From positions 1 through 64,000 of the forward strand of contig NZ_BCRK01000007.1 in assembly GCF_001552555.1 (NCBI RefSeq): DNA of 64,000 nt, written 5' to 3'. The number at the start of each line of letters is the position of its first letter. The first letter of the stretch is position 1. Source of the DNA: Nocardiopsis trehalosi NBRC 14201. Its GTDB lineage: Bacteria; Actinomycetota; Actinomycetes; Streptosporangiales; Streptosporangiaceae. Shown here piece after piece: positions 55,301 through 59,923 of this stretch. The notes below the pieces were generated by a model that worked only from the letters and a program-made list of their open reading frames with translations, did not search any database and was not told where the DNA came from. A program made the position numbers and the translations under genes.

Positions 55301-56116
55301 CTAACACGGTTCGGCGGGGCTGATCGGGACGGCGCCGGTGTGGACGTCGTCACGGCCGCCCGGCGCCGCGGGCGGGCGCAGGACGGCGAACGCGTCGGTG
55401 ATCTCCAGGCGCCGGGCGCGGAAGCGGAAGAGGGCGGCGGGGCGGCCGCCGGAGCGGCCGGAGGGCACCGAGCGGCCGGTCTCCTCGATCTGGCCGCGGC
55501 GCAGCAGCACCCGGCGCAGGTTGGTGGCGGCGACGTCGTGGCCGAGCGCGGCGCGGTAGTGGCGCGACAGCTCCGACATGGTGAACTCCGGCGGCGCCAG
55601 GGCGAAGCCGATGTTGGTGTAGGAGAGCTTGGCGCGCAGCCGGCGGCGGCCGGAGTCGACCATGGCGGCGTGGTCGAACCCCATGGGCGGCAGGTCGGCG
55701 GCCGGGTGCCAGGCGGTGTCGGCGGGGATGACCGGGTCGACGTCGGCGGGCACCAGGCCGAGGTAGGCGGTGGCCAGGACGCGTCCCTGGGGGTGGCGGT
55801 CGGGGGCGCCGCGGGTCTCCAGCTGCTCCAGGTGGGCGAGGTCGCGGACGTCGACCTTCTGCGCGAGCTGGCGGCGGACGGATTCGCCCAGCCCCTCGGC
55901 CGGGCCCAGCCGCCCGCCCGGCAGCGCCCAGGCGCCCTCGAACGGCGGCAGCGCGCGGCGCCACAGCAGCACGGCGAGCCGGCCGGCGCGGATCTGCAGG
56001 ACCACGGCCAGCACCTCGTGGGAGGCCATGGCCGGGAGCGGCGCGACCCCGGGTCCGGCCGGGATGCGCCCGATGTCGCCGTCGATGTCTGCCCCTGTCC
56101 CTCCCATGAAGACCAT
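55301..56116 (-). CDS. nrtR: NrtR-type Nudix-like transcriptional regulator
   Basis: A 271-residue protein with a Nudix fold (about 25-165) fused to a winged helix (about 180-240: [38 protein letters not shown]). This is the NrtR architecture, a repressor of NAD synthesis that senses ADP-ribose. The Nudix box [24 protein letters not shown] has RQLAQK in place of the REUxEE catalytic Glu residues, so pyrophosphatase activity should be lost, as in NrtR. ATG 56116 has GGAAAG 7 nt upstream; another ATG lies at 56107. It faces nadA, with a quasi-palindrome between. Related to the HAD gene by a 10-bp gap. Confidence 0.85.
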
Positions 56117-56155: not shown

Positions 56156-56234
56156 GGGTGCGGACGTTCCGCCGCAACCACGAGGCCGCCGACGGGCTCC
56201 CCCCGCCGGCGACACGCCGAAAGAAGACACTGAC

Positions 56235-57233
56235 ATGGCAACGGTCACCGCTCCGGCGGACAGCATGACCATGGACGCGTGGGCCGCCGAGGTCCGCCGC
56301 CTGGCGAAGGCGCGCGACGCCGTGATCCTCGCCCACAACTACCAGCGCCCCGAGATCCAGGACGTCGCCGACCACACCGGCGACTCGCTCGCCCTCTCCC
56401 GGCTGGCGGCGACGGTCGACGCCGGCACGATCGTGTTCTGCGGCGTGCACTTCATGGCCGAGACCGCCAAGATCCTCGCGCCGGAGAAGACGGTGCTGCT
56501 CCCCGAGCCGCGCGCGGGCTGCTCGCTGGCCGACACCATCACCGCCGAGGACGTGCGCGCCTGGCGCGCCGAGCACCCCGACGCGGTCGTGGTGGCCTAC
56601 GTCAACACCTCGGCCGCGGTGAAGGCCGAGACCGACGTCTGCTGCACCTCCTCCAACGCCGCCGACGTCGTCCGGTCGATCCCCGAGGACCGCGAGATCC
56701 TGTTCCTGCCCGACCAGTTCCTCGGCGCCCACGTCAAGCGGGTCACCGGCCGCGACAACATCCGCGTGTGGATGGGCGAGTGCCACGTCCACGCCGGCAT
56801 CGACGGCGGCACCCTGCGCGAGCGGGCGGCGGCCGACCCCGACGCCGAGCTGTACGTCCACCCCGAGTGCGGCTGCGCCACCTCGGCGCTCTACCTGGTC
56901 GGCGCCGGCACGGTGCCCGCCGAGCGGGTCAAGGTGCTGTCGACCGGCGGCATGCTCAGCGCCGCCGAGCGCACCACGGCCGGCAAGGTCCTGGTCGCCA
57001 CCGAGACGGGCATGCTGCACCAGCTGCGCGCGGCCAACCCGACCACCGTGTTCGAGCCGGTCAACCCGCGCGCCGAGTGCCACTACATGAAGATGATCAC
57101 CGCCGACCGGCTGCTCACCGCGCTGCGCGACGGCACGACCGAGATCACCGTCGACCCGGCGACCGCCGCGCGGGCCCGCCGGTCGGTGGAGCGCATGGTC
57201 GCGATCGGCGCCCCCTCGCGGGGCGGCGAGTGA
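56235..57233 (+). CDS. nadA: Quinolinate synthase A
   Basis: Condenses iminoaspartate with dihydroxyacetone phosphate to quinolinate in de novo NAD synthesis; a 4Fe-4S enzyme. Conserved [23 protein letters not shown] near the start, [25 protein letters not shown] and [17 protein letters not shown], giving the three cluster cysteines. 332 residues, normal. ATG 56235 with AAAGAAG 9 nt upstream. nadB and nadC are not adjacent, unlike in many actinobacteria. Probably repressed by the facing NrtR-like protein. Confidence 0.96.
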
Positions 57234-57372
57234 TGAGGTAACAGGAATCTCACCTTCCCGCCACAGCTCGCCCGGCGGCCGGACAGGACGGCCTCCACCT
57301 CGCTAGCGTGATCCGGACAACTCCGGCTTATCGCCACGCCGGAGCACGCGTGTCGCGCTTGGGGGAGGGGAC

Positions 57373-58782
57373 GTGACCACGCACGCCGACACCGGGCGTC
57401 ACCATGCCGATTCCGGGGCGGAGGTCGCGGCGCTGCTGCGCGCCGGCGGCGGCCACGGCCGCTGCTACGACGACTTCGCCCCGGACCTCTACCGCTACTG
57501 CTGGACCCTGACCGGCCCCGCCGGGCCCGAGGGCGAGGACCCCGCGGCCGATGCCGTCCACCAGGCGCTGCTCGCCGCCGCGCACCTCGTGGGCGACCTC
57601 GCCGACCCCGCGGAGCTGCGCCCGTGGCTGTTCGCGCTGGCCCGCGCCGCCGCCCGGCGGCGCGGGTTCGCCACCCGGTCGCCCTACACCGCGCTGGCCA
57701 CCGCGCCCGCCGAGCGGCCCGCCGCCGACCTGTGGCGGCGGCTGCCGCCCAGCCACCGCGAACTGCTCGAACTGCACCTGCGGCACGGCGTCGCCCCCGC
57801 GCACACCGCCAAGATCCTCGGCCTGGCCCCCGGCACCGCCGCGGAGCTGTGCCGGGCGGCCGTCGCGCGCGCCGCCGAGGCTGCGGCCGCCGCCGGACCG
57901 GCCGAGCCGCCCGCCGAGCGCACCGAACCCGAGCGGCGGGTCCGCGCCCGCCTCGCCGCGCTGGAACCGCCCGGCCCCCCGGCCGGGCTGCGGGCGCGCA
58001 CCGTCCACGACTGCGCGTCCCCGCTGCGCGTGGCCACCCGCCGCGCCGCCGCCGAGGACCTGCTCCCCCTCGGCGCCGACGGGTTCCCCCTGCACCGCGC
58101 CGAACCCGAGGTGGCGGCGCTGCTGGCCGCCGCCCCCGCCGCGGGGGAACCGCCGGCCGGGCCGGGCCCCGAGGAGGTGGCGCTGCCGCCGCAGGACCGG
58201 GTCACCACGGCCGACGTCGCCGCGCCCGCCGCCGAGCAGGTCGCCGGGCCCGCGCCGTCCGGCGGCGGCCGGACGCGCCGCCGCCTCCCCCTGGTCGCGG
58301 GGTCGCTCGCCGCCGCGGCCGTCGCGGCCGCTCTGGGCGCGGCGCTGCTCCTCGGCGGCGCGGACGCCCCGGACACCGTCGGCCCCGGGCCGGCCGACCG
58401 GGCGGTGCCCCCGGCCGCCGGCGGCGCCGCCTCGCCGGTGCCCGACCCCGCGCACACCCCCCACCACGGCTCCCCCTCCGCACCGGCCGCCGCGCAGGGG
58501 CCGGCGGGCGCGGCGGCCACCCCCGCGCCCTCGGCCGACGGCGCCCCCGCGCACGACGCGCCTCCGCCGCCCGCCGCCGAGGACCCCGGGGACGCCACCC
58601 CGTCGCCGCCCCCGGCCGGCGGCGCCCCCGAGGCGCCGCGCGAGCCCGACGACCCCGGCGCCCCCGGGGAGCAGCCGACCGCGCCCGCGCCACCGGGGGA
58701 CGGCGGGGACGGCGAGGACCGCCGCGGCCCGGTCGGCCGGCTGCTGGAAGGGCTGGTCGGGCTGCTCACCCCGGGCGACTGA
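57373..58782 (+). CDS. Sigma-factor-like protein fused to a membrane anchor
   Basis: A 469-residue protein. The N-terminal 170 residues look like an ECF sigma factor: a region 2 remnant (YDDFAPDLYRYCWTLTGPAGP...AVHQALLAAAHL...LRPWLFALARAAARRR) and a region 4 helix-turn-helix (LWRRLPPSHRELLELHLRHGVAPAHTAKILGLAPGTAAELCRAAVARA). Then an Ala/Pro-rich linker, one membrane helix (near 305-328: LPLVAGSLAAAAVAAALGAALLLGG) and about 140 Pro/Ala-rich outside residues. A sigma-like domain tethered to the membrane could sequester or release a transcription factor. GTG 57373 has GGGGGAGGGG 2 nt upstream. No defined family name is certain. Confidence 0.72.
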   Translation: MTTHADTGRHHADSGAEVAALLRAGGGHGRCYDDFAPDLYRYCWTLTGPAGPEGEDPAADAVHQALLAAAHLVGDLADPAELRPWLFALARAAARRRGFATRSPYTALATAPAERPAADLWRRLPPSHRELLELHLRHGVAPAHTAKILGLAPGTAAELCRAAVARAAEAAAAAGPAEPPAERTEPERRVRARLAALEPPGPPAGLRARTVHDCASPLRVATRRAAAEDLLPLGADGFPLHRAEPEVAALLAAAPAAGEPPAGPGPEEVALPPQDRVTTADVAAPAAEQVAGPAPSGGGRTRRRLPLVAGSLAAAAVAAALGAALLLGGADAPDTVGPGPADRAVPPAAGGAASPVPDPAHTPHHGSPSAPAAAQGPAGAAATPAPSADGAPAHDAPPPPAAEDPGDATPSPPPAGGAPEAPREPDDPGAPGEQPTAPAPPGDGGDGEDRRGPVGRLLEGLVGLLTPGD

Positions 58783-59302: not shown

Positions 59303-59923
59303 CTAGGCGTCGGCGGACTCGAACGAGGCGAGGAGGGGGACCGCGGCGGTCTCCAGCCGGGCGCGCACCTGGTCGGTGTCGCGGCGGCCCTTGAGGTTCT
59401 CCAGCAGTTCGAAGATCCAGATGCTGGCCAGCGAGCCGACGAGCACGTAGCCGCGGTCGTCGCGGTCGGGGGCCGCCGCGCCCTCGCCCGACAGCGGGGT
59501 ACGGGTGGCCACGTGCCAGAGCAGGTCGGTGATGCGCGTACCCAGCTCGGTCTGGACCTCGGCCAGGATCAGCGAGCGCACCAGGGCGTCGGCGAGTTCG
59601 GGCTCGCGCATCAGGCCGCGCGTGGCCCGCATCAGCACGTCCACGGTCCGCCCGGCGGCGGTCTCGTGGGTGGGCGGGCGGCGGCCGATGCTGGTCTCCA
59701 GCAGGTCCAGCTCCTCGGTGACCACCGCGACGACCAAGTCCATCTTGGACGGGAAGTAGCGGTAGAGGGTGCCCAGCGCGACCCCGGCGCGCTCGGCGAC
59801 CGCGCGCATCTGCATGGCCTCGACGCCGCCGCGCAGCGCCAGGGCCGCCGCCGTCTGCACGATCCGCTTCCGGCGCTGGTTCTGGCTTCGTGACCGCATT
59901 CCGATCGGCGCCTGGACCGCCAC
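59303..59923 (-). CDS. TetR-family transcriptional regulator
   Basis: A 206-residue regulator. N-terminal helix-turn-helix: RRKRIVQTAAALALRGGVEAMQMRAVAERAGVALGTLYRYFPSKMDLVVAVV. The C-terminal ligand/dimer domain (ADALVRSLILAEVQTELGTRITDLLWHVATRTPL) resembles KstR-like regulators of lipid or sterol genes. GTG 59923 has GGGAG 8 nt upstream; an ATG eight codons later (59899) is less well supplied. Divergent from the MBL-fold gene, with a TAGAA-TGTG-TTCTA operator between. Confidence 0.9.
   Translation of the reverse strand: MAVQAPIGMRSRSQNQRRKRIVQTAAALALRGGVEAMQMRAVAERAGVALGTLYRYFPSKMDLVVAVVTEELDLLETSIGRRPPTHETAAGRTVDVLMRATRGLMREPELADALVRSLILAEVQTELGTRITDLLWHVATRTPLSGEGAAAPDRDDRGYVLVGSLASIWIFELLENLKGRRDTDQVRARLETAAVPLLASFESADA

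Follow-up and report, generated by a model that had tools for sequence, protein, structure and literature searches.

The window analyzed here, a stretch of 64,000 nucleotides from Nocardiopsis trehalosi NBRC 14201, carries a gene for a membrane-tethered sigma-like protein downstream of the quinolinate synthase gene nadA (Table 1). A stretch lying 3 to 12 nucleotides upstream of the GTG start, GGGGGAGGGG, has a counterpart 5' of the start in most family members. Two conserved noncoding blocks sit between nadA and the sigma-like gene. The first, GTAACA-N5-CTYACCTT, was seen in the consensus of the members' upstream regions, with some rows lacking it; allowing up to one mismatch, it occurs at a single site in the genome, and the reversed pattern used as a control occurs at none. 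The second, TCGCTAGCGTNNNCCGGACAACTCCGGC, is faint or missing in some rows (e.g., L062 and L105). It contains TAGCGT, a putative -10 element that resembles TANNNT, and a short inverted repeat, CCGGACAACTCCGG, was also noted inside it. Neither block could be matched to a known regulator site.

Table 1. Features of the sigma-like gene, its surroundings and related proteins (window positions unless a locus is named)
Feature	Position	Strand	Basis
NUDIX-type regulator beside nadA	55304-56098	-	weak NtrR match, 83 bits against a cut-off of 400
nadA (quinolinate synthase), constant upstream neighbor	56232..57233	+	region comparison
Upstream block GTAACA-N5-CTYACCTT, directly 3' of nadA	57238..57256	+	consensus of members' upstream regions
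Second upstream block, TCGCTAGCGTNNNCCGGACAACTCCGGC	57300..57331	+	consensus of upstream regions
Whole gene, membrane-tethered sigma-like protein, GTG start, 469 aa	57373..58782	+	ORF list, homologues
Sigma2-like domain, residues 25-101	57445..57675	+	NCBIfam, structure matches, alignments to BldN and SigL
Sigma4-like helix-turn-helix, residues 108-174	57694..57894	+	structure matches, alignment
Post-sigma4 helical segment, residues 186-240, ending PLGADGFP	57928..58092	+	AlphaFold, profile match
Cytoplasmic motif DRVTTAD (DR[VIAL]TTxD)	58195..58215	+	motif count in members
Single membrane helix, about residues 308-330	58294..58362	+	hydropathy
Outer low-complexity Pro/Ala/Gly-rich segment, without Pfam domain	58363..58725	+	Pfam scan, composition
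Conserved C-terminal amphipathic tail (GPVGRLLEGLVGLLTPGD)	58726..58779	+	shuffling of outer segment
TetR-type regulator, usual downstream neighbor	59303..59908	-	KstR-like, 127 bits against a cut-off of 280
Tail-anchored sigma-like proteins in other genera	L131:14206-15987, L135:12941-14386, L138:15467-16771, seven others		

The original prediction described an ECF-like helix-turn-helix protein that runs into one membrane helix and about 140 outer residues, and this architecture was borne out: NCBIfam sigma-70 models matched the protein (best 2.8e-6, weakly ECF, all under the curated cut-offs), hydropathy located the helix, and 139 residues follow it. The Pfam scan of the window protein gave no match, and the gene is absent from the 69 sigma4 (PF08281) matches in its own genome, so that both Pfam sigma domains become visible only in other members. 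Among 31 family members, Pfam recognized sigma2 in 10 and sigma4_2 in 15, the Thermobifida fusca member lying above the cut-offs for both; at the level of the family, the pairing of sigma2 with sigma4 that marks an ECF (group 4) sigma factor is thus present. PF22554 (Chap-C) also matched 5 of the 31, and in the two examined singly the match fell in the sigma4 region, under the cut-off.

When 60 genomes were searched, seven further genera of the GTDB family gave long matches (E <= 6.4e-52); matches elsewhere were weaker and for the most part partial. Counting its own genome, 32 of the 60 had a match at E <= 1e-3. A profile built from eight members matched 69 of the 297 genomes available for the GTDB family, spread over 17 genera, at E <= 1.8e-52, the next being G026 at 3.2e-44 and all others standing at 2.4e-36 or weaker. 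Sixteen of the 17 named records matched at E <= 1.8e-52 bear Nocardiopsaceae-type names (among them Streptomonospora, Nocardiopsis, Thermobifida, Marinactinospora and Murinocardiopsis), one is an unclassified actinomycete MAG, and the tree labels displayed for named members read Nocardiopsidaceae. We defined the finger-less family as 32 nonidentical members, which form one clade (support 99-100), and set apart 35 weaker relatives as the zinc-finger group.

Long antisense and out-of-frame reading frames overlap the gene, the window copy has no Pfam match and 1 of the 32 members is frameshifted, all of which might be expected of a spurious or decaying frame in GC-rich DNA. Such an origin is refuted for practical purposes by the conservation among members, which retain the start signal, sigma part, linker, membrane helix and tail at only 36 to 48% full-length identity, and by the dN/dS values, which for the sigma part stayed below 1 in nine of nine close pairs (0.23 to 0.57). 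The corresponding ranges were 0.23 to 0.64 for the linker and 0.37 to 1.07 for the disordered cytoplasmic part; those of the tail (0 to 0.82) are too noisy for use. The frameshifted member comes from Allosalinactinospora lopnorensis (L050), where the frame shifts before the membrane helix through either sequencing error or decay.

The locus around the gene is constant. Conserved neighbors had been proposed as a check on the prediction, and they were found: in 24 family regions, which represent 20 distinct genomes besides that of the window (L050 included), the upstream side always has the genes for a HAD protein, the NUDIX regulator and NadA, arranged as in the window, with nadA closest to the sigma-like gene and reading the same way. 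Downstream, the TetR gene follows in 22 of the 24 regions and is missing from two named Thermobifida regions, and an MBL gene was seen in 13, several slices ending before its place. Identity to the window's proteins was 84 to 90% for NadA, 67 to 79% for HAD and 54 to 63% for MBL and, over the aligned parts, 38 to 58% for the sigma-like protein. The gene is thus a real one: its locus is constant, and the protein, though it diverges fast, is under selection. The NUDIX-type regulator, which weakly resembles the ADPR-responsive repressor NtrR, may control the NAD genes.

The absence of a zinc finger distinguishes the family from its closest relatives. The zinc-finger group consists of 35 proteins from other Streptosporangiaceae, among loci L009-L030 and L064-L078, and is like the family in its homologous sigma2, sigma4 and post-finger helices, most of its proteins also having a membrane helix and a Pro-rich outer part. 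The HxxxCxxC motif was found in 33 of these 35 but in none of the 32 family members, and zf-HC2 in 13 of 30 but in 0 of 31 (L050 and five zinc-finger-group rows being excluded). The family profile matched the zinc-finger group at E 3.6e-38 over sigma2, sigma4 and the post-finger helices, leaving the finger region gapped. That match could be read as the mark of an ordinary zinc-finger-type fusion whose finger has diverged beyond recognition, but with neither motif nor domain detected in any member and a gap where the finger should align, we consider this very improbable. As part of what we regard as the best explanation, the family would instead be a derived relative of the actinobacterial fusions of sigma factor, zinc finger and membrane helix.

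The two groups also occupy different loci: of the 24 zinc-finger-group regions examined, including one (L046) around the finger-less L029, none had nadA or TetR. We therefore rejected a simple loss of the finger in place, also because three genomes (G108, G063 and G065; loci L109-L111) carry a zinc-finger-type sigma fusion besides their family member. In other actinobacterial families, we noted zinc-finger sigma fusions with an outer BACON-like domain (Pfam PF19190; L112, L116, L118 and L119). An assignment of L112-L116 to the Streptomyces ECF52 group was not upheld, the two that were scanned having the BACON-like outer domain and no match to a carbohydrate-binding module.

The place of the finger is taken by a short helical segment whose structure was predicted with confidence. 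AlphaFold modeled residues 1-244 (18 rows) at a mean pLDDT of 89.9 and a pTM of 0.88. Behind sigma4, residues 181-190 averaged 75 and residues 191-240 reached 90 to 98; by block means, the helix at 186-195 scored 75 to 90, and those at 206-215 and 217-229, which precede PLGADGFP, scored 97 to 98. All 31 members compared share P200, P203, L206, P232, G237 and P239 within this linker. In the model, these helices are predicted to fold back onto a closed sigma2/sigma4 pair. A protein of the zinc-finger group was modeled similarly well (pLDDT 88.2, pTM 0.85), and its structural matches behave alike.

The model is matched best by solved sigma factors in complex with an anti-sigma partner, namely CnrH with CnrY (4cxf_A; Z 13.4, rmsd 2.8 over 150 residues) and SigW with RsiW (5wuq_A; Z 12.8, rmsd 3.1 over 148 residues), although a Z near 13, as the structure tool itself notes, can reflect a common helical arrangement. 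Chains labeled as ECF sigma factors in RNA polymerase complexes fitted at an rmsd of 26.6 to 27.5 over 127 to 145 residues or on one domain only, as would be expected if the sigma domains lie apart in those chains. Not every inhibited sigma factor fitted well: SigmaE/RseA, AlgU/MucA and BldN/RsbN matched on one domain only and SigK/RskA had an rmsd of 7.3. SigG1, a sigma factor crystallized without a named anti-sigma partner, also matched, with an rmsd of 3.7 over 152 residues. Foldseek against the PDB returned nothing at E <= 0.001, the best matches being SigL (0.013, an RNA polymerase-bound chain) and CnrH (0.014). Since the structural matches mainly span residues 13-182, the post-sigma4 helices themselves were matched to no solved chain. 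Helix 4 of class I anti-sigma domains lies over the RNA polymerase-binding surface of sigma2, and about half of the membrane-bound domains are described as having no zinc motif (PMC7406223); a finger-less fusion that retains the following helices fits this published picture. The state at rest is thus predicted to be closed and may be an inhibited one, although a closed form does not by itself prove inhibition.

Between these helices and the membrane lies the motif DR[VIAL]TTxD, present in 24 of 32 family members against 0 of 30 zinc-finger-group proteins; the other 8 members do not have the strict pattern. Its threonines might be phosphorylated. The membrane helix (best 19-residue hydropathy 2.11, with RTRRR on its N-terminal side) is kept in 31 of the 32 members including the window's, the exception being L050, frameshifted upstream of it. 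The claim that a sigma-like domain is held at the membrane is well supported, and by the positive-inside rule the sigma part would face the cytoplasm.

The outer segment was likewise rightly called Pro-rich, proline making up 25% of the 139 residues in the window protein and 9 to 27% across 31 members (L050 excluded). Outside the sigma part, no Pfam match was obtained for the window protein and 11 members scanned singly, and no family named as a carbohydrate-binding module appeared in the Pfam scan of 31 members; that scan contained one DUF2332 match, whose position in the protein was not located. The segment ends in a conserved amphipathic tail, which in the window protein holds VGRLLEGLVGL. 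When the outer segment of each protein was shuffled 500 times, the hydrophobic run in the last 25 residues stood out at p<0.01 in 30 of the 31 family members but in just 1 of 30 zinc-finger-group proteins (L050 and five zinc-finger-group rows excluded). The missing zinc finger, this tail, the DRxTTxD motif and the constant locus all go beyond the original prediction.

Whether such a protein would act at promoters is less clear. Region 2 had been called diverged, with a caution that the protein may not be an active sigma factor, and the alignments justify both statements, region 2 and the sigma4 recognition helix departing from positions shared by BldN and SigL, the only two reference segments on which this comparison rests. 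Residues 92 and 96, which we take to belong to region 2.4, are N and D in the references; in the 32 members, residue 92 is A, T or S throughout and residue 96 is mostly R (23/32). The change at these residues is not peculiar to the finger-less family, since they are altered in the zinc-finger sets too, N standing at position 92 in just 4 of 9 proteins of one set and 4 of 32 of the other and, among the letters shown, never D at position 96. In the recognition helix, the K found at 157 in BldN and SigL is replaced, and position 158 is acidic, in all 32 members; the RH pair at 137-138 of the sigma4-like domain is invariant (32/32). The changed positions are presumably among those of regions 2.4 and 4.2 that contact the promoter. 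Because the sigma2 and sigma4 parts have lost residues that BldN and SigL share, promoter activity is uncertain.

The same changes could indicate that the protein is no longer a sigma factor at all but a membrane-held mimic or decoy, which would bind one of the cell's anti-sigma factors, or core polymerase, and let go on a signal. The sigma-like domain of PhyR acts in this way as a mimic for NepR. PhyR chains are among the structural matches of the model, PhyR_sigma2 was matched in 1 of 31 members (2.3e-4) and PhyR_sigma-like in two of the tail-anchored proteins described below (0.0037 and 0.013), all under the Pfam cut-offs, and even the RH pair is gone from the tail-anchored proteins. Against this stand the Thermobifida fusca member, which clears the Pfam cut-offs for both sigma domains, and the eight named neighbors, none of which is anti-sigma-like; in the model, moreover, the protein's own post-sigma4 helices would pack where such a partner is expected. 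We consider a mimic or decoy possible, if rather unlikely. PhyR itself is like the window protein in its sigma fold and possible mimic use and differs from it in being a response regulator, its sequence matches to the family being weak.

In other genera, the corresponding locus can be recognized by its TetR homologue. Seventeen genomes without a strong family match have TetR at E <= 1e-45, and we examined 13 regions in 13 genera plus G026. A diverged sigma-like reading frame was found adjoining a proV-like gene in 9 of the 13 regions, and a tenth lies at a slice edge. The remaining three have no sigma-like frame within the slice; in two of them (G028 and G009), a later profile found a sigma-like protein about 10 to 12 kb from TetR, and in G016 the profile found no tail-anchored sigma-like protein. 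The ten proteins, like the family, have a sigma-like part, a long disordered linker and a membrane anchor without a zinc finger (no HxxxCxxC). They are unlike it in that their sigma part is more diverged and their strongest membrane helix lies at the extreme C terminus, in the last ~25 residues, leaving almost no residues outside the membrane. Their genes lie between the proV-like ABC genes, which adjoin in nine regions, and TetR, and a HEATTEPMP-like motif was noted in the linker of the proteins. Since these proteins have no outer part, sensing on the outside cannot be a rule for the whole locus.

A profile built on the N-terminal part of nine tail-anchored proteins matched 64 of 150 genomes of the GTDB family, at one place each and in 25 of 68 genera; none of these 64 genomes is among the 33 family-positive genomes compared. 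The G026 protein is intermediate, with no zinc finger, an internal membrane helix and a hydrophobic tail (p=0.01); TetR, MBL, GT and MT lie on the same contig as its gene, where no nadA or proV-like match was found. Position and mutual exclusivity suggest that the family and the tail-anchored proteins are one diverged gene. One quick tree, for which rows L122, L121, L029 and L019 were dropped beforehand, joined the two at a support of 89-90, but long branches meet in it, and a test does not distinguish this grouping from one with the zinc-finger proteins (p-AU 0.515 for the latter).

Staying at the membrane for good would suit the tail-anchored proteins, which like the family could remain anchored while acting. 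CadC is a membrane-bound DNA-binding regulator that works without release, and a sigma4-type helix-turn-helix could in the same manner bind DNA while anchored. The helix-turn-helix domain is indeed conserved, but the closed, self-packed model and the acidic residue at position 158 speak against this, and we hold it to be improbable.

Our preferred reading, to which we give a probability of roughly 0.45, is a self-inhibited, membrane-held ECF-type regulator. In favor of such a regulator count the selected protein in its constant locus, the sigma2 and sigma4 domains recognizable across members, the profile match to the zinc-finger group, the confidently modeled post-sigma4 helices, the matches to anti-sigma complexes, the conserved tail, membrane helix and Thr-Thr motif, and the precedent of SCO4117. 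Against it count the altered sigma2 and sigma4 residues, the anti-sigma complexes that fit on one domain only, the match to SigG1, the tail-anchored proteins with no outer part and the members without the strict DRxTTxD pattern. Closed and tethered, the sigma part would be kept from core RNA polymerase. A signal from the envelope or membrane might be read via the outer tip, via modified threonines in the cytoplasmic linker motif, or both; cleavage at the membrane, or else a conformational change, would then open or free the sigma part, and the protein would act at a few promoters. Proteolytic release is plausible by analogy with related fusions; our analysis found no protease site, signal or target gene for the sigma-like protein.

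A wider proposal, which we regard as speculative and on the whole doubtful, is that in much of the family this one locus encodes an anchored sigma-fold protein that is no ordinary sigma factor, having shed the zinc-finger lock and being held by its own anti-sigma-like helices. It would come in two anatomies, one tail-anchored and the other, of the Nocardiopsaceae type, with an outer disordered arm and an amphipathic tip, and it would be controlled not by zinc or a sensor domain but by the cytoplasmic Thr-Thr motif together with contact with the membrane.

By architecture and homology, the nearest published kind is the actinobacterial fusion of sigma factor, zinc finger and membrane part represented by ECF48, ECF52 and ECF53. 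In the literature searched, which did not extend to the main ECF classification paper, no paper was found on a finger-less fused ECF member or its tail; nor was one found on tail-anchored sigma-like proteins, which is thin evidence of absence. SCO4117 of Streptomyces coelicolor (ECF52) likewise has an N-terminal ECF part, one membrane helix and a proline-rich outer segment; it differs, by its description, in a zinc finger before the membrane helix and a terminal carbohydrate-binding module (PMC5826349). These are two defining features of ECF52, and the finger-less family shows neither, the window protein ending instead in its amphipathic tail. For SCO4117, a truncation phenotype and phosphorylation at Ser15 and Thr231 are described (PMC5826349). 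ECF48 and ECF53 similarly join sigma to a membrane part with a long extension and are, in the description on which this comparison rests, unlike the window protein in having a zinc-finger (ZAS) domain (PMC8999054). Proteolytic release is expected for the ECF48, ECF52 and ECF53 fusions, and opening of fused sigma/anti-sigma proteins has been proposed to occur through inactivation of the zinc finger or through proteolysis after sensing on the outside (PMC8999054; PMC5826349). IutY of Pseudomonas putida (ECF243) also combines a sigma factor and a membrane anti-sigma part in one polypeptide, which is reported to be processed by Prc and RseP (PMC8999054); as described, it belongs to another ECF group and has another signaling partner. 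Set beside these systems, a lineage without a zinc finger or a recognizable outer sensor offers a pared-down case for testing what the anchor and the remaining helices do, and its occurrence in cultured Thermobifida fusca makes the finger-less protein accessible to experiment.
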